Shown here one piece after another: positions 1-17,749 of a stretch of 37,523 bases of DNA (position 1 is the stretch's first letter; every line of letters begins with the position of its first letter). The notes beneath the pieces are model-generated. The model saw only the letters and a program-made list of their open reading frames with translations, made no database searches and was not told the origin of the DNA. The translations under genes and the position numbers were made by a program. The stretch covers positions 1 through 37,523 of the IMG/VR virus record IMGVR_UViG_3300046003_003352; one strand, 5' to 3'. The DNA is from a virus.

Positions 1-1517
1 AAGACGAAGTCTTGACCATTGAATGCCACAGCATAAGGAGAGCAAGGGTTTGCCTTGCTACCCCAACTAGCTAGGTCTGGGCTGTAGCTTATTTGAGTGC
101 CCCATATCACCCAACTATCCCCATCCCAAAGAATCTGACCCTGTATGTTTACGCTATCCCGTATCGTCCAGTTAATGCCGTCTGTCGTTGAGATCAAGGC
201 TGGGTGGCCCGTGTGGAAGTTGATACTAACTGAGCCTACTAGCATGCCATCGTTAGTGCCCCATGTAACACCCCCATGGTTCATGCCACTGATACCGTGG
301 AAGGTCCAGATCGCGTTATCAACTGACCTGTAATACTGGGCAAGCACCGTATTGTTACTATAGTTTGTGTACCAGTTAAATATCATAGAACACCCATTTA
401 TGTGTTCTATGTTCGTGTAAGCATACTCAGTCCCTGGAATGCTAAAGGATATCCAGGCTCTACCGTCATCACTGGCAGACCTAGCACATGCTCCACCTTT
501 TCCTAAAGCTATAAAGCAGCTACCGCACCACTCAATATCAACCCAGTTATTTGTGGCTGGGGCTAGGATAGACTTCCAGGTCTTACCGTTGTCAGAGATA
601 TAGAAGTAGTTCTGGTTCCCAGTAACGACATAGGTTCCGTCATGGTAGGCAATCCTTGCTGAGTCATAGCAAGCACCGGGCAGGGCGAAGGATGTCCAGC
701 TGATGCCATCAGGTGACGTATATGAATAGTTGTTATCTACGGCTACAAACTGGCCCCCGTCCCAGATAATGCCTGTCTGGTACCCAGCTGGGCCTGCATT
801 ATCTGAGATGGAGACGTAGGTATTAGTTGCCCCTAGTGAGACCACCTCAACGCTAATCTGTGCGCCGGCTAGTGTGTTCCCATACTTAGCCAAATCCAAG
901 TCATCGAATACGATGTAGGACAAACCCCGGTAAGCAGGCGTGTTGGCTACACCAAGCGTGGCTTGCATCCGTGAGTCAGGAGCCTGAGACTCGTCACCTA
1001 GATGGACGCGGAACCCTGCAGCTGCCTGAGCACTGGCGCTAAACGTCCCTATGTCGGAAGCACCCCCGTCATAGAACAGCTTGTCGCTGATCCAGATTCT
1101 ACGTATGCCAGCAATGGGGCCTTCACACAGACCTAGAGCAAAGGTCGCGGTATAGGAATAGGTTGTGGTCTCGGAGCCGCCACCACCCCCGCCTTTGCCC
1201 CCGCCTTCCTCTGTGTGGCTGTGCTCTTTCAGGGAGTTGTTCTCGATCCAGAACACATTCCCCATAATGGCAGCAGAGCCATACACGCGAGGAATAAAGA
1301 CACCGTAACTGGCTGCCTGCTGTGAAAGATCAGAGATGCGTGGCCCGACAATCTTGGGGCCTGGTGGTGGATCAAGCGCACTGCCAATGGCCATGCCGAC
1401 TGAGGCACCAGACATCATGGCCGATGCGGTTGCTGACCAGCCTACACCACCAGTGAAATAGCCTGCGACGGCACCAACTACGGCGCCGCCAATTTGGCCA
1501 GTTGTCATTCCACTCAC
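1..1517 (-). CDS. Second tail-tip (host-specificity) protein, 3' end outside window
   Basis: This open frame runs off the left edge; about 505 codons are visible. Residues 1-220 closely parallel the upstream tail-tip gene: a Gly/Ala-rich hydrophobic start, then motifs such as FWIENNSL, a GGGKGGGGG linker, FALGLCEGPI, LGVANTPAYRG and FDDLDL. After that it diverges completely. The rest (about residues 230-505) has repeated S-x-D-G-x-x-W type motifs (TSPDGISW, SDNGKTW, TTDGINW), typical of BNR/Asp-box beta-propeller blades. By family knowledge such proteins sit at the tail tip and touch the host surface. The GTG start is placed by homology with the paralogue; an ATG lies three codons downstream. 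It begins 27 bp after the upstream paralogue stops. The paralogy is seen; receptor binding is inferred. Confidence 0.85.
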   Translation of the reverse strand, partial: MSGMTTGQIGGAVVGAVAGYFTGGVGWSATASAMMSGASVGMAIGSALDPPPGPKIVGPRISDLSQQAASYGVFIPRVYGSAAIMGNVFWIENNSLKEHSHTEEGGGKGGGGGGSETTTYSYTATFALGLCEGPIAGIRRIWISDKLFYDGGASDIGTFSASAQAAAGFRVHLGDESQAPDSRMQATLGVANTPAYRGLSYIVFDDLDLAKYGNTLAGAQISVEVVSLGATNTYVSISDNAGPAGYQTGIIWDGGQFVAVDNNYSYTSPDGISWTSFALPGACYDSARIAYHDGTYVVTGNQNYFYISDNGKTWKSILAPATNNWVDIEWCGSCFIALGKGGACARSASDDGRAWISFSIPGTEYAYTNIEHINGCSMIFNWYTNYSNNTVLAQYYRSVDNAIWTFHGISGMNHGGVTWGTNDGMLVGSVSINFHTGHPALISTTDGINWTIRDSVNIQGQILWDGDSWVIWGTQISYSPDLASWGSKANPCSPYAVAFNGQDFV

Positions 1518-1544
1518 ATCAAGCTCACAGTTAGGTTACGCAGT

Positions 1545-4500
1545 TTAGAAGTCAGGGAAAGCCGCTGCTGCTGGCGTGAAGTTAGCAGTATATCTTGCTA
1601 CGCCCTTGGTGAGTCTCAAATCATCAATATAGGCCGATGCCGAGTACAGGGCTGCATCATTCTCCCCTGGAATTGAGAAGAGGTTGAGCAGCGGTGTGGT
1701 GCTTGGTGGTGTCGGGCGGAAAGCCACAGTACCAGCCAAATTCCCATCCAGGTACCCCTTAGTCTGGGCTGCCTCAACCACAAATGTGATGTTGTGCCAA
1801 GTGTTCAAGGAGACTGCAAATGTTATCGTCCGTATTCCAGTGCCGTCCCAGAACTGCAGGTCGATACCGCTTGAGGCTAAGTTTGTTTGAATCAACCAGT
1901 GAATACCGGTGGTTGCATTCCACCCCACAACACCACCACCCGAGCACATAAGTCGAGCGCCGCCGCCGCCGCCCGGTGCATAGGACAGCATGTGAAGATT
2001 AAACTCAATTGTGTAGGTAGTGCCAGCGGCTATCGCCCAGTTTGCAGAGGCTGCGAGTGATAGGAAGTTGCCAGACGAAGCACCAGGATGGTAGGTACTG
2101 GCTGTGCCATTCTTAAAGATACCGGTTTTTGTAACGACTGATGTACCAGTCCTTGTGACCGTACTGCCCTTAACGTCTGGGAACGAGGTACCGTTATCAG
2201 CACCGTCCATGTGCATCGACAGAACAACAGAGGCCCAGTTTGTATCACCGACTAGCATCTGGTCGCCGCCTAGCACCGTAAAAGAACTAACCAGTGGATA
2301 ACCACGGCCAACACTAGCCGACATCTGGTAAATCTTTACGTAGATAGTGCCGGGAGATGTTCCGAAATCTGTCAGCTGATCAGCGTAAAGATAAGTGTAG
2401 GTTGGGGCACTGACCGCAACAGTCCGCTTGAGCGTTGTGTAGGTTCCACTGCTGTAAATCTCCATCTCGTAGGCTTCAGTGGTCTCACCCAGCTCAGCAT
2501 CGACATTGTCCCGCCACTCACCACCCTTCCGGGTGCGGCGCAGCCAGGACAGCGTCTGTACAAGAGTGGTTGGGTGCCGGCTGCTGGAGGGGTACACGGG
2601 GCTGAGGCATTCAAGATTGACCCCTTTGTAAGCGAATGACCTGCTGCCATCACTATCAATTGTCAAGCCAGACGTAACGCCCTTGTAAGACTGCACAGCC
2701 CCGATCTGGCTCAGACTTGATACGACAGCCTGCAGCTTGCTGGTGTTGATCAGGATGAGTGAGTCGCCTGCAGCATGCAGGCCCATTGCCCACTCGGTAC
2801 CGTATCGACCACGTAGCAGGTCGGTAAGCACATAGCTGCCATCACCTTGTAGCGTACAGGTCTGGGCCGCGATGATCTCCCATCTGCCATCAACCCCGTA
2901 GGCAAAGTGGTTTGACCCATTCAGCAACTGTGACTCGGTAACGCTAAACAGGGAAGCGCCACTAAAAAAAGTAGCTGAGAGCGAACTTGTCTTATCGATC
3001 AATCTTGGCTCTGCTGGTACCCCGATTATGTTGTTGCCTACGCCCATGGTCGATGGCGTCGTAAAGCCATTGGTTATTACCCAAGTCTGACCACCGTCAG
3101 TGCTCCTGAATATTGAGCCACCCGGCCAGCTGCTCATCAAGCCTGACATCGCCACTGGGAATGCTGTTAAATCAAATGTGTCCAGCATCAATGGAATATC
3201 AAGCAGCTCGTACCTGCTAGTGGTAGGGGTGCTGATCGTAGCTACCGGGAGCGTCCCTGTGTCACTGACAGCAGCGCTTGAGTACGCAGCAGGGTTGTTG
3301 AACTTGGCTGTACATTCCAGAATGCCGTCTGACCGGTAGTTGATACTGATCAGGCGCAGTACGTAGGTGCCAGACTCAGCCTGCACCGTGATCACGTCTG
3401 CCGGCTCAAGATAGTTGTAGTCTGGAGGCAAATTAAACACTACCTCGTAGCGTTCAAGCCAGTACATATAGAGAAGGATTTCCGCAGTTTGAGCCGCCTC
3501 GCCTGCTGTCAAAGTCAGGGGCATATCAATGTCCTTGATATTGACCGAGTTGACGTTCAAACGCTCAGCGTACTGCAGCCCAATGTCGTACTCACGGTCA
3601 TAGTCAAGGTAAGTTATCGTGACCTTAGCCGGCAGCTGTGAGTCCATGCTGCGTGTCTCGATGAAGCGTGAATTATCCGTATCACCGTAGGCCCCTGCCC
3701 CTAGTTCCGATGTCAGGATGGTTGCAGTATTAGTGCCCCCTCTCCGCTTAAACCTGAGTTTATAGCCAGACTGGATGACATCAAATGGCCAAGCTCCCTG
3801 GATGGGGCCAAGGTTGGATCGTATCGCAGCAACAGACGCAATCTTGTAGCCACGCACTGAGTCAGTCAATGACAGGGCATCAATATCTCCTGCATTTAAG
3901 ATGCCTGACTTAACGCACTCAGCTGTTACAACGCTAGACAGTAGAGGGCCTGACTGATAAGCGCCTCTTGTAAAGTCATGTACAAAGCCACTGAAATAAA
4001 CAAGGTCTTTCACTATGTAAGCAAAGTAGTCATACCCATACGTGCCTGACGCTTGTTTATAGTGACCAACAGATGTTGATAGATTGTTAGCGGTTGGTGT
4101 TAGTTGATAGATGGAGCCAGAGTTACTGGCGTAAAAAACACCATCCCTTCGGCACTTAAAGTTCCAAGGGTAGCTAGGGTTGAAGCTTGTCGTGAATACT
4201 TCAAGGACTGCTAGTGACTCGTGGTCACATACGAATATCCCACTACCATTCAACAGGTACAGATTGTTGTACTCATCTGAAAACATGGAGAGCGTAGCGA
4301 GACCTAATGGCAAGTTTGCAATAGGCACGTCCTTGAAGTGCCAACCATGTTTGAATATGACGATACCCGCTCCAGGTGCCATGATGTAGGCGTACTCACC
4401 AAGGCTTACACAGCCTTGATAGTCATACCCACCTGGGGCATACATACCAGAATCATACGGATTAAACTCTGTTATACGGTTACCTTCAATGTCATAGATA

Positions 4501-5468
4501 GTGAACCTATGATTAACACCAGAGTAATTATAGATTACACCGATTGCACCTGCAGGTGCTAAAAGTCTGTACGTCCCGTTTATGTTTGCCCATGGCCTTA
4601 ACGTAACAGGCGAATCCTGCACTAATCCAGACTGTGTCAAACCTCCACGGCTCATGACATAGTTACTAGTTCCTGCGACAGCTTTGGAACATCTCAGCGT
4701 ACCACCCGAATAAGCGTAGGCCGTATAGTAGTCAAACGGAGCTGTAGGCCCAAACGCTGTTGATACAACACTCAGGGAGGAGCCGGCACCTACGACCTCC
4801 ACCTTGATCTGTGCTCCCGCCAAAGTGTTTCCGTAGTCAGACAGGTCCAGGTCATCAAACACGATGTAGGCCATGCCCCTGTAGGCTGGGGTGTTTGCCA
4901 CGCCGAGCGTTGCCTGCAGGCGGGAGTCTGGCAGCTGAGACTCATCGCCTAGATAAACTCTAAAGTTAGGTGCAACTGACCTGCTGGCTATGATCGTGCC
5001 TATGTCACTTGAGCCTGCATCATAGATTAGCTTGCCACTGATCCAGATTCTACGCACACCTGAGATCGGGCCTTCGCACAAGCCCAGTGCAAACGTCGCC
5101 GTATAGTAATAGGTGGTTGTTTCAGACTTACCACCACCTCCACCTTTACCGCCGTTGGACTCTGTGGTGCTGTGCTCAAGAAGCGAGTTATTCTCAATCC
5201 AGAATACAGTACCCATCAAGGCAGCGGTGCCATACACCCGAGGAACGAATGAGCCGTAGTTGGCGCCTTGTTGGGTTAAGTCGTTAAGACGTGGCCCAAC
5301 AATGTTTGGCCCAGCCGGTGGGTCGATTGCCCCACCAATGGCCATGCCTGTGGAGGCCCCAGAAGCCATCGACATGGCTACTGCGTACCAACCCACCCCA
5401 CCTGTGTAAAAGCCGACGACAGCGCCAACAACGGCGCCGACGATCTGGCCAGTGGTCATTCCACTCAC
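1545..5468 (-). CDS. Tail-tip / host-specificity protein (J-like, GTA gp15-like) with LamG C-terminus
   Basis: A 1307 aa protein in the place of lambda J and the GTA host-specificity protein. The N-terminal 220 residues are the conserved tip module. Residues about 240-480 look like a beta-propeller insert without Asp-boxes. The middle part has the tail-tip signature LLRGRYGTEWA and one Asp-box-like motif (RSTDGGQTW). The last 200 residues are a LamG/concanavalin-like domain ending in IDDLRLTKGVARYTANFTP, common in phage adhesins. GTG at 5468 is preferred because AAGG lies seven bases upstream; an in-frame ATG lies at 5459. It overlaps the stop of the NlpC gene, so the two are coupled. Expected at the tip of the tail, attached to the hub, giving receptor or glycan binding. 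A partial paralogue follows directly. Confidence 0.88.
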   Translation of the reverse strand: MSGMTTGQIVGAVVGAVVGFYTGGVGWYAVAMSMASGASTGMAIGGAIDPPAGPNIVGPRLNDLTQQGANYGSFVPRVYGTAALMGTVFWIENNSLLEHSTTESNGGKGGGGGKSETTTYYYTATFALGLCEGPISGVRRIWISGKLIYDAGSSDIGTIIASRSVAPNFRVYLGDESQLPDSRLQATLGVANTPAYRGMAYIVFDDLDLSDYGNTLAGAQIKVEVVGAGSSLSVVSTAFGPTAPFDYYTAYAYSGGTLRCSKAVAGTSNYVMSRGGLTQSGLVQDSPVTLRPWANINGTYRLLAPAGAIGVIYNYSGVNHRFTIYDIEGNRITEFNPYDSGMYAPGGYDYQGCVSLGEYAYIMAPGAGIVIFKHGWHFKDVPIANLPLGLATLSMFSDEYNNLYLLNGSGIFVCDHESLAVLEVFTTSFNPSYPWNFKCRRDGVFYASNSGSIYQLTPTANNLSTSVGHYKQASGTYGYDYFAYIVKDLVYFSGFVHDFTRGAYQSGPLLSSVVTAECVKSGILNAGDIDALSLTDSVRGYKIASVAAIRSNLGPIQGAWPFDVIQSGYKLRFKRRGGTNTATILTSELGAGAYGDTDNSRFIETRSMDSQLPAKVTITYLDYDREYDIGLQYAERLNVNSVNIKDIDMPLTLTAGEAAQTAEILLYMYWLERYEVVFNLPPDYNYLEPADVITVQAESGTYVLRLISINYRSDGILECTAKFNNPAAYSSAAVSDTGTLPVATISTPTTSRYELLDIPLMLDTFDLTAFPVAMSGLMSSWPGGSIFRSTDGGQTWVITNGFTTPSTMGVGNNIIGVPAEPRLIDKTSSLSATFFSGASLFSVTESQLLNGSNHFAYGVDGRWEIIAAQTCTLQGDGSYVLTDLLRGRYGTEWAMGLHAAGDSLILINTSKLQAVVSSLSQIGAVQSYKGVTSGLTIDSDGSRSFAYKGVNLECLSPVYPSSSRHPTTLVQTLSWLRRTRKGGEWRDNVDAELGETTEAYEMEIYSSGTYTTLKRTVAVSAPTYTYLYADQLTDFGTSPGTIYVKIYQMSASVGRGYPLVSSFTVLGGDQMLVGDTNWASVVLSMHMDGADNGTSFPDVKGSTVTRTGTSVVTKTGIFKNGTASTYHPGASSGNFLSLAASANWAIAAGTTYTIEFNLHMLSYAPGGGGGARLMCSGGGVVGWNATTGIHWLIQTNLASSGIDLQFWDGTGIRTITFAVSLNTWHNITFVVEAAQTKGYLDGNLAGTVAFRPTPPSTTPLLNLFSIPGENDAALYSASAYIDDLRLTKGVARYTANFTPAAAAFPDF

Positions 5469-5875
5469 ATCAGCGCCTTAAAGCGATAGACGCTGACAAT
5501 TCGTTTGATCCACATTTCATCCAGAGAATGTTCGCAGACCATACCTACAGCCTCATAGCTGTGGATGACTGTATCGCCGGCACAGATAGCGACGTGCTGC
5601 ATCTCCTTGGCGAAGCGCATGGTCAGGATGTCACCGGGCTGACGGTCAGCAATGGCTACTTGCTCAACACAAACCTGAGCAGCAATGGTGGCTTCCAAGG
5701 CACCGTTAGGCGACCTCCCATACCCCTGAGTATCGATGATGTCGATATCACAGTTCTTGGCAACGGTGACGACCAGACCAGCACAGTCAAGCGCTAAGCC
5801 TGACAACCGGCCTTGGTGTCTGAAAGGTGTCTTGAGGTGCTTGCGTGCCTCATTGACAATATCCTCGCCTGTCAT
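5465..5875 (-). CDS. NlpC/P60-family tail cell-wall peptidase
   Basis: A 136 aa protein. The motif LDCAGLVV carries the presumed catalytic Cys, and QHVAICAGDTVIHSY carries the presumed His, as in NlpC/P60 cysteine peptidases. Its position between the DUF2163 protein and the tail-tip protein is that of the GTA/lambda K-like tail peptidase, which opens peptidoglycan during DNA entry or tip assembly. ATG at 5875 overlaps the stop of the upstream gene (ATGA), which decides the start against a longer TTG version. The downstream tip gene overlaps its last codons. The family assignment is firm; activity is inferred from the retained Cys and His. Confidence 0.85.
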   Translation of the reverse strand: MTGEDIVNEARKHLKTPFRHQGRLSGLALDCAGLVVTVAKNCDIDIIDTQGYGRSPNGALEATIAAQVCVEQVAIADRQPGDILTMRFAKEMQHVAICAGDTVIHSYEAVGMVCEHSLDEMWIKRIVSVYRFKALM

Positions 5876-6702
5876 CGCGTACCCCGGCTTGAGTAGATGC
5901 TGCTGGTTGGCATATTGGAGAAGCCGCCGAAGTTGATCACGTTGTTCCACTTATCACGGCAGTCGCTGAGCGTCTTGCGGCAGCCAGGTCTGATAAGGTA
6001 GGTGTCACCCACTTGAGGCTGGTAATAGAAAGCATCAAACACTGTAATCACACCCGCGCTGAAGCTGCGAATTTCCATTGGCTTCAGGCTTGCGTTCAGA
6101 CCAGAGGTGAAATCAACCGTACCGTAAATCCAGTAGTCAGCTGCTTCGCCGCGTGAGGAGTCACCAAAAGTGTATTGATTTGAAACACTGGTCACTGCAC
6201 CACTTACTGTCAAGCCTCCAAGGTCTTTCTTACATCCTGCATATTCTGTGCCACCAAATACTTTAGGGCATGAGGCTGAGTAAGTTTTACCGATGGACTG
6301 ATTGAGTGCATCGATCAGTGCCATCTCTTCGATCTTGTACCGGTCATCGATCAGGGTCGTCTTGCCCAGAATCGAAGCAATGATCGGCTCGTAATCCTCA
6401 ACCGGGCTAAGCCAATTGACGGCAAACAAGTAGCAGCGTGCGCCATCAAATACCCCACTAGCCACTGTGTTGCGATCGATCCCTGCCATGCCAGCAATAC
6501 CCTCGAAGTCAAAGACTGCCGGGGATGTGCTGGTAGAAGACTGAATCCCTGTGAACTCATAGCCTGACGAGGTCAGATATACCTGAGCATTACTCATTAC
6601 TAGGTCAGTCGGGTAATCAGTAAGCCTGATTACTGTGCCGTTTGTACAGACAATCCGAAGGCAACGAGCAGCCGTAGCATAAGGTGCAACCTGGGGTTTC
6701 AT
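5872..6702 (-). CDS. DUF2163 / BR0599-family tail hub protein
   Basis: A 276 aa protein. The C-terminal segment CRKTLSDCRDKWNNVINFGGF, followed by an N-M-P end, is the hallmark of the phage BR0599 / GTA gp13 family. The N-terminal half (RIVCTNGTVIRLTDYPTDL, YEFTGIQ, DRNTVASGVFDGARCYLF) matches the DUF2163 region. Several cysteines may bind a metal; in the GTA tail structure the equivalent protein is an iron-sulfur-containing hub component (family knowledge). ATG overlaps the stop of the DUF2460 gene by ATGA. It would sit between the distal tail protein and the tip protein in the baseplate hub. Confidence 0.85.
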   Translation of the reverse strand: MKPQVAPYATAARCLRIVCTNGTVIRLTDYPTDLVMSNAQVYLTSSGYEFTGIQSSTSTSPAVFDFEGIAGMAGIDRNTVASGVFDGARCYLFAVNWLSPVEDYEPIIASILGKTTLIDDRYKIEEMALIDALNQSIGKTYSASCPKVFGGTEYAGCKKDLGGLTVSGAVTSVSNQYTFGDSSRGEAADYWIYGTVDFTSGLNASLKPMEIRSFSAGVITVFDAFYYQPQVGDTYLIRPGCRKTLSDCRDKWNNVINFGGFSNMPTSSIYSSRGTR

Positions 6703-7568
6703 GGGTTCATGATCTCAATAAGTTCAACACTATCAACGGCGCGGTGGCCAGGAAAATCTTGTCCGATCGGCATAGAGGTATTAAACCTGACCGGGAAGTC
6801 AAACTCAAATCCAGCCGTGACTGCTTCCCCGACCTGTGGGTTGGTGTTCAATACACCACCTGATGAGTACCCACCAAAGCCAGATGTGTTGTAAGCAATC
6901 GTGATGGTCGTACCGGTTACAGACGAGACCAAGGCGCGGACATTGTTGATACCTGACATCCCACCAACCCCGGTTATCAGGATTGATTGGCCAGCCACCA
7001 CCGTATGCGACGGCACCGTAATGACAGCGTTCAAGGCATTAGTGATGCCCGTAATAGTTGCTGTCTTATTGGCTGTGAATGTGACCACGCCAGTAGCGGT
7101 ATTGATTGACAGGTCTGCAGCTCGAATCTGGGTGATGCCAATGGCTACAATCACTGTGCCACTGACGGGTTTTTTAATCGTGCGGTACGGGTAGCCTGTG
7201 CTGCCTGCTGTCTTGTCCCGGCCATAGTACTTGCGGAGCTGATACACACCTGCCGAGATCAAGCCCATAGGCTGGTCTGTGCTGGTTGGCGTGCTTATCG
7301 CACCGTTGCTGGTGAATTCGTCTAGGCACTTGACGCGGAAGCCGGCGTACTTACCGTGCGCCCGATGGTACAAGCCCAGTAGCTCTAGGTAGGTTGCGGC
7401 ATTGTCTAGGAGGTAGGAGACATCAAACTTGCGGAGAGGGAATGGATGAACAAGCGTTCTGTACTCCTGCCCTCCTGCGGTCTTGACCACATTTACTACG
7501 TAGTCGTCCTGGTAGGACGACCCGTAGTTCAGCACACCATTGATGCGCTCTTCCAGAAAATCAGCCAT
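6699..7568 (-). CDS. DUF2460 distal tail protein
   Basis: A 289 aa protein. The start MADFLEERI and the end DFPVRFNTSMPIGQDFPGHRAVDSVELIEI match the DUF2460 / GTA gp12 distal tail family, which forms the ring between tube and tip. Residues about 160-250 look like an insertion: a Gly/Val/Thr-rich module with SHTVVAGQSILITGVGGMSGINN. This module recurs in the large appendage protein at 24761-28036. ATG at 7568 lies inside the end of the tape measure gene (8 bp overlap) and is preferred over a start five codons upstream. It is first of the four-gene GTA-like hub cassette. Confidence 0.84.
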   Translation of the reverse strand: MADFLEERINGVLNYGSSYQDDYVVNVVKTAGGQEYRTLVHPFPLRKFDVSYLLDNAATYLELLGLYHRAHGKYAGFRVKCLDEFTSNGAISTPTSTDQPMGLISAGVYQLRKYYGRDKTAGSTGYPYRTIKKPVSGTVIVAIGITQIRAADLSINTATGVVTFTANKTATITGITNALNAVITVPSHTVVAGQSILITGVGGMSGINNVRALVSSVTGTTITIAYNTSGFGGYSSGGVLNTNPQVGEAVTAGFEFDFPVRFNTSMPIGQDFPGHRAVDSVELIEIMNP

Positions 7569-10500
7569 ACCTCTGAGCCCCACTCATGTATTGAAGCGCC
7601 ACCCTTGCACCGGCTGCTGCACTGCGTCGTATTTCAGCCGTGTCGCCAGTACTTGAATTGACATTGACATTGACGTTGTTGTTTGTCACGTTTGACTTAG
7701 TGGAAGTTTGGTTGCCGTTACCGTTAGCATTCACGCCAAGCCTTCCCTTCGAGTCACGAGTCAGGGGCATTATAGCCTCTTCACCAGCTTCACCCATAAC
7801 ACCATTTGCCATCTGGCCACCATTAGCGAACTTGAAGAACGTAGGCTGATTGACGACCTGATTGGTAAATGACGCGCCTTTTGCAAAGGCGTGGAGACCG
7901 GTGACACCGTAGGCGCCGCCCTTGGCATTCTCTGCAAAGTCAAAGTTTTTAGAATAAGCTGATGAGTCTAGCTTAGCGCCACCACCGGCAGCTGCACTGG
8001 CTGCACCAGAGATAAGGCCACCAGAACCTGGCACGAAGTAGTTAGCGATGGCCCCACCCAGTGTGCCCCACATGCTGCTCCCACCGTTGCTGCCAACACC
8101 GTTACCCATCAGGCCAGTGACGGTGCCCATGGCTTTCAGTACAGCCTGCTGAGCACCGATCCTGATCATCTCAGTCAAGATGGAGTTACCAAGTGCTTTC
8201 CACTCAAACTTGCCAGTCGTAGCAAATCCGACGATGACATCTTCCATCGTCTTGGCTGACTTATTGAACGCATCCGAAGCAAGCTTGCTGTAGTCAGTAG
8301 CCGAGTCTGCATAGTCTCTGAAGGCATTCTTCCATCCAGACTCAAGTGAGCGTGCATACTCGACCTCAGCTCCAGCATTGGCACCTGCCTCAGCTCTGGC
8401 TTCAGCACGTTTTTCTTTCAGCATCTCAAGGTCTGCAGCCAGCGACTTGACCAGCGCACTCTCTTCGCCGTAGATGTCTCTGGTTCTTTTGAGATCAGAC
8501 TCAAGCGTGACCTGCTTCTTATCAAAGACCTTGTCCACGTTCTTTTCAGCCGTGTGAGTAGCCCGTTGCTCAGGGGTCATCGTCTGGGTGACACGAGCGT
8601 CGTTGTCTTTCTCCTTGATGAGCTTAACGTCTGCTTGGGCTTGGTCAATGAAAGCGAGGGTGTCCTCGTGAGCCTTCTTGATGATGCCAAGCTCCCGGTC
8701 TTTCGACTTCTGCAGTCTGAGCGTTTCTTCAGACTGGTACTTTTCCTGACTCGTCTTCAACTGATCCTGGTGCATACGAGCTTGCTTAAGCTCATCGCCC
8801 TGAGCCTTATCAACGATACCTTGAAGTCTGGTAGCGCCAGCTGAGTACAAATAGTCCATGGCTGTGCCGTACTTCTTGTAGATTCCCTCAGCTTCAAGCC
8901 TGTACTTTTCCTCAGAGATCAGGTTGTTACTACGAGCACTATCAAGGATATCCATCTCAGCTTTTTGCTGTTCCTTGACACGGTTGATCGCAGCTTCTTC
9001 TGATTTAAAGTCGTAGTCCTTTGGAGCCCGAGCACGAGCGGATGCCCCACCTCCACCACCACTCCTGGCCTCGTCAGCCCACTTCTTACGTTTCTTCTGC
9101 TCTTCAGCAACTTTCCCTGCAGACGTTAAATCAACCTCACCGTTCTCACCTACATTACGGTCAGCATTGACTCTGGAAGCTTCATCAAGCTTCCCACGCA
9201 TCTCCAGTAGCCGCTTCCTAGTAGCATCGAGCTCTGGGAAGGCCTTCAGATTCATCTTGGACGGTCCTTCTCCCTTGATATTCAACCCCATATCAAGCTC
9301 AATCTTTCCACCGAACTGTCCCTCTAAGTCCTTCTTGAACTTATCTTCTTCTGTTGAAAGCCCCTTGTACCCGTCCATGATGTTACGGGCGGCTGTATCT
9401 CTATCCAGCTTGCCTATATGTATGTTGCTTATCAGGTCGTTGATACCTTGAATCGAGCCTTTTACACGCTCTGCCTGCTCCCTGATCCTATCTAAATGCT
9501 TAGTCCCAGAATCACCATACAGTGCCCAAGCCACTACACCTGCAGATAGCAAGCCTGCCACGATCCCTATGGGTCCGCCCAGTGCCATCATGCCTACGCC
9601 GGCTGCTGCCGTAGTTGCTGACGTGGCTGCAGTTGCCAGGCCAAACGCCACCATTGCTGTACGAGCGCCACCGACAACAGCAAGCCACGCGGCTGTGGCT
9701 GCTTGAGCCCCAATCATTCCAATCTTATAGATAGCAAACGCTTCTACAACACTTAGTATTGTTGGGGCAAACTCAACCAATGCTTTGGTGATGGTCGTCA
9801 TGCTGCTAACTACAGCCTTGACACCTTCCAGGAACTCTGGGCTTCCGAACAAAGTTTTGAACTGGTCAGCCACGTTCTTTAGTTCTGGTTCCATCTCCTT
9901 GAAAGCTCGAATCAGCTGAGCTTCCATCGTGTTCAAAGCCTGTGCCCATTTACCTTTGGCAGTATCTTCAAGCTCCTTTGCTACCCCATCCATGAATCCT
10001 TCAGAGTCAGCAATGCTACTACGCAGCTTGTCCCACTCATCACGGGTCAGAGCAAGCATCGCTATCGCTTCCTTCGCTCCGCGTTCACCAAATATCTTTT
10101 GAAGAATCTTAACTTGGTCGGCCTTGCTGAAGTCGTTTATCTTGCCCTTCAGGTCATAGATAATATCGACAAACGGTCTCAGATTACCATCAGCACCTTG
10201 CGTCTCAAGCCCTAACTTCTTGATGGCCTGACTCGCTTGATTGGTTGGTGAATAAAGCTCCTTGAGCATGTTTCTGAAGGCCGTACCTGCTGACGTACCT
10301 GTAATATTCACCTTGGCTAGTAACGTGATGGCCGTAGCGGTGTCCTCAATATTCGCCCCGTACTGCTCACCAACCACAGAAGCGTACTTCATGGCTTCTG
10401 TCATACCTTGGACTGATGTCTGAGATAGCGCAGCTGCTTTGGCGAAGATGTCACCTACGTGCTGAGACTGATCAACAGTAAGGTTGAAAGCGTTCATCAC

Positions 10501-12324
10501 ACCAACAAGGGTGGTAGCAGCCTGCTCCATATTCATCTCGCCAACAGTGGCCAGATGTAAAGCGTGCGGCATCGTCTTGATAGCATCACTAGCATTCAGG
10601 CCTGCCTGTGCCAGGATTCGGAAACCACTAGCGATTTCACCTGGACCTTGCAGGCTTGAGCTACCCAGTGTCAGTGCTGATTCAGTGAGTCGATCAACAG
10701 CTTGAGCTGTTTCACCCGATAGCGCCTTAACAAAGGTGAGCTGGTAAGCAAACTCAGAACCGCGCTTGGCTGCCTGCACAAAGCCTGCGCCTAGCGCAGC
10801 GCCTGCCATCATTGGTATTAGTGAGCCATAGGTCATCCACAAGGTGCCGAGGGAGCCTGACAAGCCACGAGCAAGGGCGTGCCCTTCATTGGCTGCCTTG
10901 TTCCAGTGGATTTGATGGTCACCAGCAGCTTTTGTAGACGTACCGAGCTTATCAAATGCATCTTGGGCAGCCTGAGTACTCCCCAAATGCTGAGCAGCTG
11001 CCAGCGCTTGTGAGCTACCTGCTCCACCTTTAAGGGCTGACTGGTTTCCTCCACCGTACAAGGTGCTTGCTGCTTTAAGTGTGGCACCCGCCCTCTGCTT
11101 CTCTGTCATAGCCAGCCAAGCTGCTAACTCCTCCACGTCCCTCTTGGCTGCTTTTATGGCGGCTGCCTGCTCTGCTGAAATAACCTTAAGCTCTAGATTG
11201 TTGGCCAGATTCTTGGCGCGTGCTAATTCCTTGGTCGCCTTCTCAGCCTCAGCTATCTTGCCAGCCTCTTCAGCCTTGATCACCTTCAGCTCTAGGTTGT
11301 TGGCTAGGTTCTTGGCGCGTGCTAATTCCTTGGTCGCCTTCTCAGCCTCAGCTATCTTGCCAGCCTCTTCAGCCTTGATCACCCTCAGCTCTAGGCTGTT
11401 GGCTAGGTTCTTGGCGCGTGCTAATTCCTTGGTCGCCTTCTCAGCCTCAACTATCTTGCCAGCCTCTTCAGCCTTGATCACCTTCAGCTCTAGGCTGTTG
11501 GCTAGGTTCTTGGCGCGTGCTAATTCCTTGGTCGCCTTCTCAGCCTCAGCTATCTTGCCAGCCTCTTCGGCCTTGATCACCTTCAGCTCTAGGCTGTTGG
11601 CTAGATTTTTGGCGCGTGCTAATTCCTTGGTCGCCTTCTCAGCCTCAGCTATCTTGCCAGCCTCTTCAGCCTTGATCACCTTCAACTCTAGGCTGTTGGC
11701 TAGATTCTTGGCGCGTGCTAATTCCTTGGTCGCCTTCTCAGCCTCAGCTATCTTGCCAGCCTCTTCAGCCTTGATCACCTTCAGCTCTAGGCTGTTGGCT
11801 AGGTTCTTGGCGCGTGCTAATTCCTTGGTCGCCTTCTCAGCCTCAGCTATCTTGCCAGCCTCTTCGGCCTTGATCACCTTCAGCTCTAGGCTGTTGGCTA
11901 GATTTTTGGCGCGTGCTATGTCGTTTGTTGATTTGACTATGGCATTGCCTGTCATCTCAGCCGACCTGAGTTGGACACCCATCAGGTAGTCAGCGCTGGC
12001 AGCTGCTGACTTAGAGGCAACTGAAGACTCAGTTATCTTCTTGTTAAGCTTGTCGAGTTCAGCTGCAGCCGCAGTAGCAGCAGCAGCCATCTGTCGCTCC
12101 ATACTAAGGAGGGCGGTCTGTGATTTACTGACCTGCTGCTCAAGCAGCTTCGACTTTTCATTGACCTTGTTAAGCTCTGCAGCAAGCGCAGAGAGCCCAC
12201 CAACAGCTGTGAAGCCTTTGGCGAACTCATCCTTCAGGTTTTTGTAGGAAGTGGCTAGTAGGGCTAATTCCTCTGCTGCCCCACCAGTGTTGATCTCTAA
12301 CGATAACTTAGCTGTATCACTCAT
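7561..12324 (-). CDS. Tail tape measure protein
   Basis: A 1587 aa protein that sets tail length and is injected or expelled on infection. The N-terminal 370 residues are Ala/Glu/Lys-rich coiled coil, including seven periods of a 33-residue repeat. Residues about 470-760 contain the TP901-type tape measure core (FVKALSGETAQAVDRL, LAQAGLNASDAI, LLAKVNITGTSAGTAFRNML). A hydrophobic Ala-rich stretch follows (about 870-930). The C-terminus has a lambda GpH-like segment (FEWKALGNSILTEMIRIGAQQAV) and the usual GEAGEEAIMPLTRDSKGRLGV motif. ATG overlaps the stop of the GT frame (ATGA) and has GGAG eight bases upstream. A 308-codon plus-strand open frame here is only the antisense of the repeat. Confidence 0.95.
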   Translation of the reverse strand: MSDTAKLSLEINTGGAAEELALLATSYKNLKDEFAKGFTAVGGLSALAAELNKVNEKSKLLEQQVSKSQTALLSMERQMAAAATAAAAELDKLNKKITESSVASKSAAASADYLMGVQLRSAEMTGNAIVKSTNDIARAKNLANSLELKVIKAEEAGKIAEAEKATKELARAKNLANSLELKVIKAEEAGKIAEAEKATKELARAKNLANSLELKVIKAEEAGKIAEAEKATKELARAKNLANSLELKVIKAEEAGKIAEAEKATKELARAKNLANSLELKVIKAEEAGKIVEAEKATKELARAKNLANSLELRVIKAEEAGKIAEAEKATKELARAKNLANNLELKVIKAEEAGKIAEAEKATKELARAKNLANNLELKVISAEQAAAIKAAKRDVEELAAWLAMTEKQRAGATLKAASTLYGGGNQSALKGGAGSSQALAAAQHLGSTQAAQDAFDKLGTSTKAAGDHQIHWNKAANEGHALARGLSGSLGTLWMTYGSLIPMMAGAALGAGFVQAAKRGSEFAYQLTFVKALSGETAQAVDRLTESALTLGSSSLQGPGEIASGFRILAQAGLNASDAIKTMPHALHLATVGEMNMEQAATTLVGVMNAFNLTVDQSQHVGDIFAKAAALSQTSVQGMTEAMKYASVVGEQYGANIEDTATAITLLAKVNITGTSAGTAFRNMLKELYSPTNQASQAIKKLGLETQGADGNLRPFVDIIYDLKGKINDFSKADQVKILQKIFGERGAKEAIAMLALTRDEWDKLRSSIADSEGFMDGVAKELEDTAKGKWAQALNTMEAQLIRAFKEMEPELKNVADQFKTLFGSPEFLEGVKAVVSSMTTITKALVEFAPTILSVVEAFAIYKIGMIGAQAATAAWLAVVGGARTAMVAFGLATAATSATTAAAGVGMMALGGPIGIVAGLLSAGVVAWALYGDSGTKHLDRIREQAERVKGSIQGINDLISNIHIGKLDRDTAARNIMDGYKGLSTEEDKFKKDLEGQFGGKIELDMGLNIKGEGPSKMNLKAFPELDATRKRLLEMRGKLDEASRVNADRNVGENGEVDLTSAGKVAEEQKKRKKWADEARSGGGGGASARARAPKDYDFKSEEAAINRVKEQQKAEMDILDSARSNNLISEEKYRLEAEGIYKKYGTAMDYLYSAGATRLQGIVDKAQGDELKQARMHQDQLKTSQEKYQSEETLRLQKSKDRELGIIKKAHEDTLAFIDQAQADVKLIKEKDNDARVTQTMTPEQRATHTAEKNVDKVFDKKQVTLESDLKRTRDIYGEESALVKSLAADLEMLKEKRAEARAEAGANAGAEVEYARSLESGWKNAFRDYADSATDYSKLASDAFNKSAKTMEDVIVGFATTGKFEWKALGNSILTEMIRIGAQQAVLKAMGTVTGLMGNGVGSNGGSSMWGTLGGAIANYFVPGSGGLISGAASAAAGGGAKLDSSAYSKNFDFAENAKGGAYGVTGLHAFAKGASFTNQVVNQPTFFKFANGGQMANGVMGEAGEEAIMPLTRDSKGRLGVNANGNGNQTSTKSNVTNNNVNVNVNSSTGDTAEIRRSAAAGARVALQYMSGAQRYG
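11190..11916 (-). repeat. 99-bp in-frame tandem repeat in tape measure gene
   Basis: Seven exact 99-bp periods: the landmark GGCGCGTGC at 11215 recurs through 11908, a distance of 693 bp. With a partial eighth copy they encode the 33-residue unit AKNLANSLELKV... KELAR. Copies differ by only a few bases (for example GKIVEA, LRVIKA, NNLEL variants), so the expansion is recent or is being homogenised. The unit has heptad-like spacing and should form a long helix. Confidence 0.95.
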
Positions 12325-16954: not shown

Positions 16955-17749
16955 ATGAAAATATCTCCATCAATAACTAGAGACTCAGCCGCCTTATTTC
17001 CTACCCCGGTTGGTGGTACATCAGGAATCTATTGCCTAATAAACATGGTCAATATGAAGTGCTACGTTGGGTCAAGTCTTGATATTAAAGAGCGAGTTCG
17101 ACATCACTTTAGTTATCTGCTTGGGGTTGGTCACCACAGCCAGATATTGCAACGAGCCTTCAATAAGTACGGTATTGAGTCATTCCAGTGGGGTGTCCTT
17201 GAGTATGTAGATGGGCCTGAGTTGATTGCTAGAGAGCAGTACTGGATTGATAAAGTTGGTGACTATAACATATGCAAATTTGCTGGCAGCCCTCGTGGCG
17301 TAAAGATGAAGCTGTCAGATGCTGAGATAGAACGTAGGAGGAAGGCTGCTGGTGTAATGCGAAAAACATTAACTCCAGAGCAAAAAATTGAATACCAGGC
17401 AATAGCCACAAATTCAAGACGTGGTGTTGTTACACCTCAAGCTGTGCGGGATATGTTGAGTGCAGCTACCAAAGGCAGGAAGCTACACCCTGACCATGCC
17501 GCAAAACTTTCAGCTATAAATAAAGCGCGAGTAGTAAGTGTAGAAAAACGTGAGGAGACTGGTAAGACAATCAAGGCTGCTCTACAGTCCAGAACTGAGG
17601 AGGAGGTACTAGAGTGGAAGTCAAAACTATCAGCAAGCAAAATGGGTAAACCTAGCCCAAAAAGAGGGGTACCGATGTCCGATGAATCTAAGCAGAAGAT
17701 GAAAGATGCTTGGGCTAGAAGAAAGACACAAAACAAAACCCCAGCCTAA
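16955..17749 (+). CDS. GIY-YIG homing endonuclease with NUMOD3 repeats
   Basis: A 264 aa protein on the strand opposite to all neighbours. The N-terminal nuclease has SGIYCLIN and CYVGSS (GIY and YVG motifs), an Arg/His-rich helix (IKERVRHHF) and the conserved Glu in LIAREQYWID. The C-terminal half has several NUMOD3-like DNA-binding units (GRKLHPDHAAKLS, GKPSPKRGVPMSDESKQKMKDAW). Such enzymes cut alleles lacking the insertion and spread by repair. The gene is more AT-rich than its flanks, a sign of transfer. It stands free, not inside a recognisable intron, between the capsid gene and the head-tail block. Its stop codon lies in the loop of a terminator. Confidence 0.95.
   Translation: MKISPSITRDSAALFPTPVGGTSGIYCLINMVNMKCYVGSSLDIKERVRHHFSYLLGVGHHSQILQRAFNKYGIESFQWGVLEYVDGPELIAREQYWIDKVGDYNICKFAGSPRGVKMKLSDAEIERRRKAAGVMRKTLTPEQKIEYQAIATNSRRGVVTPQAVRDMLSAATKGRKLHPDHAAKLSAINKARVVSVEKREETGKTIKAALQSRTEEEVLEWKSKLSASKMGKPSPKRGVPMSDESKQKMKDAWARRKTQNKTPA

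Follow-up and report, generated by a model that had tools for sequence, protein, structure and literature searches.

Tandem megatron-type tail-tip genes with a common N-terminal module and different inserts in a metagenomic viral contig

Introduction

The tail tip of the virus studied here raises the question of why one genome would carry, directly after its NlpC gene, two neighbouring tail-tip genes that begin alike and then differ. Proteins of this kind, the megatrons, form trimers in the baseplates of RcGTA (PMC7296036) and R4C (PMC10276861). In RcGTA the tail channel is closed by three megatrons, for which a role in piercing the outer membrane has been proposed (PMC7296036). The megatron is a DNA gate and a proposed outer-membrane pore, and its duplication with different outer domains could provide one virus with two entry tips.

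Results

Two adjacent tail-tip genes share an N-terminal module

The window analysed here is the full viral record IMGVR_UViG_3300046003_003352, a contig of 37,523 bases, and comparison of its ends showed no circular overlap. The tail-tip region is encoded on the minus strand and contains the following features.

7561..12324, minus strand: tape-measure protein gene (Pfam)
6699..7583, minus strand: DUF2460 distal tail protein, RcGTA g12 equivalent (Pfam)
5872..6702, minus strand: baseplate hub protein, phiJL001 Gp84_N / BR0599, RcGTA g13 equivalent (Pfam)
5465..5950, minus strand: NlpC/P60 cell-wall peptidase, RcGTA g14 equivalent (PF00877, E 6e-9)
1545..5468, minus strand: gene A, megatron-type tail-tip protein, 1307 aa plus stop (ORF, Pfam, profile search)
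4791..5468, minus strand: A N-module, residues 1-226 (aligned with RcGTA megatron residues 9-204)
3942..4790, minus strand: A insert, residues 227-509 (no relative found)
2277..3941, minus strand: A C-module, residues 510-1064, Phage-tail_3 and Rcc01698_C, central and fibre-binding region (Pfam and profile)
1548..2276, minus strand: A C-terminal extension with Laminin_G_3 at residues 1186-1287 (Pfam)
1518..1544, minus strand: gap of 27 bases from the A stop to the B GTG
3..1517, minus strand: gene B, second megatron-type tail-tip protein, first 505 aa, running off the contig end (phrog_4271, E 6e-58; RcGTA megatron 6tba, E 2e-18)
840..1517, minus strand: B N-module, by alignment to RcGTA the iris/penetration plus adhesin-like region
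3..839, minus strand: B insert, at least 279 aa, BNR-like class, incomplete (blastp against inserts of relatives)

The start of gene A overlaps the NlpC stop (ATGTGA), A and B are in direct orientation and both in frame, and B is cut at 505 aa by the contig end. The comparison of A with B showed 77% amino acid and 70.5% DNA identity over residues 1-226, and no similarity between the two inserts was detected by blastp past residue ~230. These results confirm the proposal of the first-pass annotation that two adjacent tail-tip genes have a common N-terminal module and different inserts. The LamG domain that it had placed at the C-terminus of A was also recovered, Laminin_G_3 (PF13385) scoring 31.0 bits against a gathering cut-off of 27.6.

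A and B are assigned to the RcGTA/R4C megatron family

Pfam matched Phage-tail_3, Rcc01698_C and Laminin_G_3 in A and gave no match in the 505 aa of B. A profile of six megatron-type hub sequences matched the RcGTA megatron Rcc01698 (6tba/6teh, E 8e-71) and the R4C megatron (8gtc). The A N-module profile aligned with 6tba residues 9-204 (E 5e-25), and B alone also reached 6tba (see above). The C-module, which is present in A and in the full-length copy of a relative, L002, aligned with residues 765-1296 of the RcGTA megatron, its central and fibre-binding region, but residues 205-764 were unmatched by the hub profile. The RcGTA megatron consists, ahead of these regions, of an iris/penetration region (1-46), an adhesin-like region (47-229) and a peripheral domain (230-744) (PMC7296036). 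As both modules aligned and the peripheral domain did not, the inserts of A and B occupy the peripheral-domain position. The order DUF2460, Gp84-like hub, NlpC, megatron is also that of RcGTA (PMC7296036). The TIM-barrel Pfam domain of the GTA was sought in A and was absent; because inserts vary widely in the family and one relative (L063) has almost none, this domain is not taken as defining. On these alignments, A and B are members of the RcGTA/R4C baseplate megatron family. Unlike the window, both reference systems have a single copy; the peripheral region of Rcc01698 has no match in the window proteins, and the R4C megatron has a different insert, with an extra carbohydrate-binding domain within its peripheral region.

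The inserts of A and B belong to different classes

The first-pass annotation had described both inserts as propellers. The A insert lacks Asp-boxes, and no family was found for it by blastp among the inserts of relatives, in Pfam or by PDB sequence. Its AlphaFold model had pLDDT values mostly below 40 and under 50 almost throughout. Given the missing Pfam and PDB matches and this low-confidence model, the propeller label was dropped for A. The B insert contains five degenerate S-x-D-G-x-x-W motifs (Asp-box consensus S-x-D-x-G-x-x-W) and matched the BNR-like inserts of several relatives (blastp E about 1e-8 to 1e-10). Its description as BNR/Asp-box-like therefore stands as far as motifs and relatives go, but no Pfam BNR model exceeded its cut-off on it. 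Grouping of inserts by blastp gave one BNR-like group of 23 loci, B and L002 included, and about 20 other groups, with A in none.

A model of the L002 copy was built from 22 sequences, with modest confidence (mean pLDDT 66, pTM 0.35). In this model, the insert forms seven four-stranded blades, as counted by hand from the strand list, one of the blades having only three strands. Foldseek matched it to seven-bladed propellers such as YCF48 (5ojr, 2xbg), with TM-scores by target of 0.68-0.72 over about 313 columns; YCF48 is a photosystem assembly factor, and the resemblance is one of fold only. The best structural match of the whole L002 hub model was the R4C megatron. The propeller claim is thus supported, by modelling, for the L002 relative of B only.

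Insert length among relatives was mostly 268-381 aa, with 159 aa in L046 and a linker of 13 aa in L063. These two loci (L046 9911-12790, L063 9530-12256) show that the frame can stay intact when the peripheral insert is missing.

Inserts are exchanged among relatives at fixed boundaries

The relatives came from scans that gave 138 loci, many of them overlapping. Three of them (L026, L027 and L033) share 81-89% identical DNA from 500 bases upstream of the hub to hub nucleotide ~645 and again from ~1560 to past the hub end, with no similarity in between. The same pattern was seen in the pairs L018/L044, L029/L025 and L029/L031, with flank identity of 73-82%. Unrelated inserts are thus bounded by hub nucleotides ~640 and ~1560-1690 in relatives with 73-89% identical flanking DNA, which is direct sequence evidence for insert swapping at fixed boundaries. 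The idea that the middle domain is acquired as a cassette is strongly supported by this comparison, which was made among single-copy relatives and not within the window genome. The GC content of the A insert is 0.459, against 0.555 and 0.527 in its flanks, and that of the two window inserts is 0.46 and 0.49 against 0.53-0.57; the lower GC of both fits cassette exchange.

Contig ends in 80 relatives were 5-6 times more frequent per kb in the insert, with 13 in 61.9 kb, than in the C-module, where 4 fell within 106 kb (p about 0.001), but the region after the hub breaks equally often. Such an excess would be expected if the insert varies within populations. The window contig itself also breaks within an insert, that of B. 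A search of GenBank phages with window DNA 1-6000 gave no relatives.

Most relatives have a single copy, and tandems recur in about five lineages

The common layout in relatives is NlpC, a single hub and then a small conserved gene (MANSTTNLD...). No second copy was found next to any of the 51 distinct complete hubs, counted after removal of identical N-modules and with at least 600 bases downstream. Single copies therefore predominate, and tandems recur in about five separate lineages: the window and L002, L093, L126, Erythrobacter phage XM05, and the Caulobacter/Brevundimonas phages.

The L002 contig starts 75 bases before a full-length hub with a BNR-type insert (1085 aa). The protein end encoded in this 5' flank, ...KTNFTPPTVELP-stop, is of the LamG type, and A ends in ...YTANFTPAAAAFPDF; the KTNFTPPTVELP-type ending was found in 5 of 6626 ORF ends, each belonging to a LamG ORF or to a long hub tail. 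Some members of the family have a LamG-like tail, either fused or as the next ORF. Because the flank ends in this rare type, L002 very likely carries the same A(LamG)-B order, viewed from the opposite side. In L093, NlpC and a full hub are followed by a second N-module (cut), and the stop of the first copy and the start of the second overlap (ATGA). L126 (8495-12797) has two copies, the second split at the border of insert and C-module into two overlapping ORFs in different frames, the latter with a LamG-like tail; the split is either a sequencing error or real. Two single-copy hubs are also interrupted by a frameshift or stop, L039 (4802-8067) at the C-module start and L061 (9827-13234) within the insert.

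Cultured phages with full-length pairs after NlpC are CcrColossus (gp122/123), J4 (gp153/154), Domovoi (04540/04530) and XM05 (XM05_70/_68). Within each genome the N-modules are 61-73% identical, the C-modules 50-59% and the inserts 17-33%. In XM05, where the values are 73%, 59% and 33%, a fibre gene lies between the copies, unlike in the window, and no published comment on the pair was found. The CcrColossus genes were published in 2012 as a duplication of phiCbK gp99, a single-copy homologue that is a virion protein (PMC3556154). They resemble the window pair in being tandem megatron-family genes directly after NlpC with diverged middles; N- and C-modules are both conserved in CcrColossus, and the B C-module lies beyond the window contig. 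They differ from it in belonging to an independent lineage (N-modules only about 40% identical to those of the window) and to a far larger phage, in their other middle domains, in having no C-terminal extension like the LamG tail of A, and in stemming from an ancient duplication whose two products have been retained as distinct orthologues in different genera. In 299 genomes of the Accumulibacter family there was no adjacent N-module pair; in one of them, several broken pieces lay on other contigs.

In the literature searched, tandem megatrons were described nowhere beyond CcrColossus, and no proteomics was found for any tandem phage. The CcrColossus duplication and the mosaic nature of RcGTA-like baseplates (PMC8265664, PMC10276861) are already known. 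No earlier description was found of the recurrence of tandems across unrelated phages, of a propeller-type insert at the peripheral position, or of the sharp exchange boundaries. The tandem megatron pair is thus a recurrent arrangement and no new system.

The N-modules of A and B are sisters and have been under purifying selection

In the phylogeny, the N-module of A groups with that of B as its sister (97/83), both lying in a tight clade with L002, and one copy is all that was seen in the nearest outgroups. This supports the duplication suggested by the first-pass annotation. Apart from the Caulobacter/Brevundimonas group, the two copies of each tandem genome are each other's sisters (well supported in XM05 and L126, 97/83 in the window, only 79 in L093), implying that tandems arose repeatedly or that N-modules were homogenised. 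In the Caulobacter/Brevundimonas jumbo phages, the first copies (gp122, gp153, 04540) form one N-module clade (99/96), implying that both copies persisted over long times; first-copy inserts there are 38-43% identical and second-copy inserts only 20-26%. A grouping of B with the L002 copy as orthologous sisters gave an AU p of 0.46 and was neither supported nor rejected, so the duplication may have come before or after the split of window and L002.

The comparison of the A and B N-modules gave a dN of about 0.18 and a dS of about 1.5-2.2, and dN/dS was roughly 0.1 for A-B, A-L002 and B-L002, where estimable. These values indicate that both N-modules have been constrained since A and B split; being an average over both branches since duplication, they are compatible with a recent loss of B. 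A search of the N-module for gene-conversion tracts gave no clear one: sites at which one of A, B and L002 differs from the other two were evenly spread.

The first-pass annotation had also read the bases before B as a relic of the NlpC end. TTGATGTGAGTGGAATG is found at B, but its GTGAGTGGAATG part is the coding start of B itself, the L002 counterpart being ATGAGTGGAATG, a conserved B coding start. Only TGAT upstream is common to the NlpC end (~1/256 by chance), with nothing similar further up, and the relic idea is therefore weak. The GTG start common to A and B, where most relatives have ATG, is one hint in its favour. The region upstream of the B GTG pairs with the anti-SD at -1.9 kcal/mol and offers no strong ribosome-binding site, which makes a lower-expressed or silent B possible.

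Discussion

The tandem layout, the family, the module borders, the exchange of inserts among relatives, the selection on both N-modules and the recurrence of tandems are demonstrated by these data. We consider it fairly probable that A and B are tandem megatron paralogues whose inserts were exchanged with other phages after duplication, and that both proteins, most likely made from one operon, are able to share the three baseplate positions. A duplication in the lineage leading to the window phage (and L002) would have given two megatron copies. The N-module, serving as gate and in penetration, and the C-module (seen in A and the L002 copy), docking on the distal tail and hub, would both have stayed constrained, and the outward-facing peripheral domain would have been replaced through exchange with other phages. 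A and B, made from one operon, could then take up the three positions either in alternative trimers or in mixed ones, and one phage population would show two different surface-binding domains. Conserved frames with different outer domains make two isoforms in three positions the simplest reading, and two working isoforms are in our view the best one. Beyond the sequence, we infer that both copies are expressed and assembled and that the inserts bind receptors; the same applies to mixed as against separate trimers and to any switching. The 'two adhesins' of the first-pass annotation fit the open frames with purifying selection in the N-module and the full-length second copies of L002 and cultured phages. 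Counting against this reading are the incomplete B with its C-module beyond the contig, the weak ribosome-binding site, the split second copy of L126 and the minority status of tandems. A stronger version, in which two assembly-competent tips carry an exchangeable receptor-facing cassette and the display is changed by mixing in the trimer or by recombination in the shared frame, without a dedicated recombinase, appears doubtful. As to a site-specific shufflon or invertible tail gene, which would have an invertase gene and inverted repeats at the variable segment, the two copies are direct and in frame, and Pfam showed no recombinase among the window genes scanned.

The main rival holds that the two proteins are specialised and non-interchangeable, each with its own place or task and no alternation. 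The long separate divergence of the jumbo-phage copies and the fibre gene between the XM05 copies speak for it, but pairs outside the jumbo group are sisters within their genomes, and hence young relative to the family or homogenised, and in RcGTA and R4C the baseplate offers room for three megatrons only (PMC7296036, PMC10276861); we regard it as rather unlikely, somewhat less so than the stronger version above. Improbable, by comparison, is the proposal that B is a poorly expressed store, in which N-module recombination deletes the A body and puts B beside NlpC, giving the other peripheral domain. The common N-module, the weak ribosome binding at the B start, the exchange of inserts in relatives and the frequent contig breaks within inserts would agree with it. 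However, homologous recombination works poorly at 70.5% DNA identity, the window lineage yielded neither a recombinant nor a single-copy derivative, and ordinary phage-phage exchange explains the swaps. The 'reservoir for recombination' of the first-pass annotation thus found no direct evidence, and the long-term retention of both copies as separate orthologues in the Caulobacter/Brevundimonas phages favours two working proteins.

It is very improbable that B is a remnant which breaks off or decays shortly after the contig end. Its cut at 505 aa and the frame change in the L126 second copy could be read in this way, but B is open over 505 codons with an N-module dN/dS near 0.1, and its positional counterpart in L002 and the second copies of four cultured phages are intact. 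An assembly artefact that misjoined two phages is less probable still: B does lie at the extreme end of a metagenomic contig, where misjoins occur, but L002, a separate record, very likely presents the A(LamG)-B order from the other side, and tandems exist in complete cultured genomes.

Taken together, recurrent tandems and fixed-boundary swaps make it possible to test directly how siphophages vary host recognition and yet keep the penetration machine, and the four cultured tandem phages are at hand for such a test.

Other features of the window

Further repeats and domains were observed in the window. The tape-measure gene contains, at 11183-11918, a 99-base in-frame repeat in 7.4 near-perfect copies (33 aa, about LELKVIKAEEAGKIAEAEKATKELARAKNLANS), possibly a determinant of tail length. 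Residues 193-245 of the DUF2460 protein (gene at 6702-7583) form an E1_FCCH-like stretch, below cut-off, that is apparently a further accessory baseplate insert. An ORF with a GIY-YIG domain, possibly a homing endonuclease, lies at 16955-17746 on the plus strand, opposite to the surrounding minus-strand structural genes. Near the right contig end (35959-36010, 36050-36130 and 36968-37369) there are perfect tandem arrays of 6 bases (CAGAAC) and 12 bases (TGGTTCATGCTC), together with GCCGAA/AAGCCG-rich repeats.
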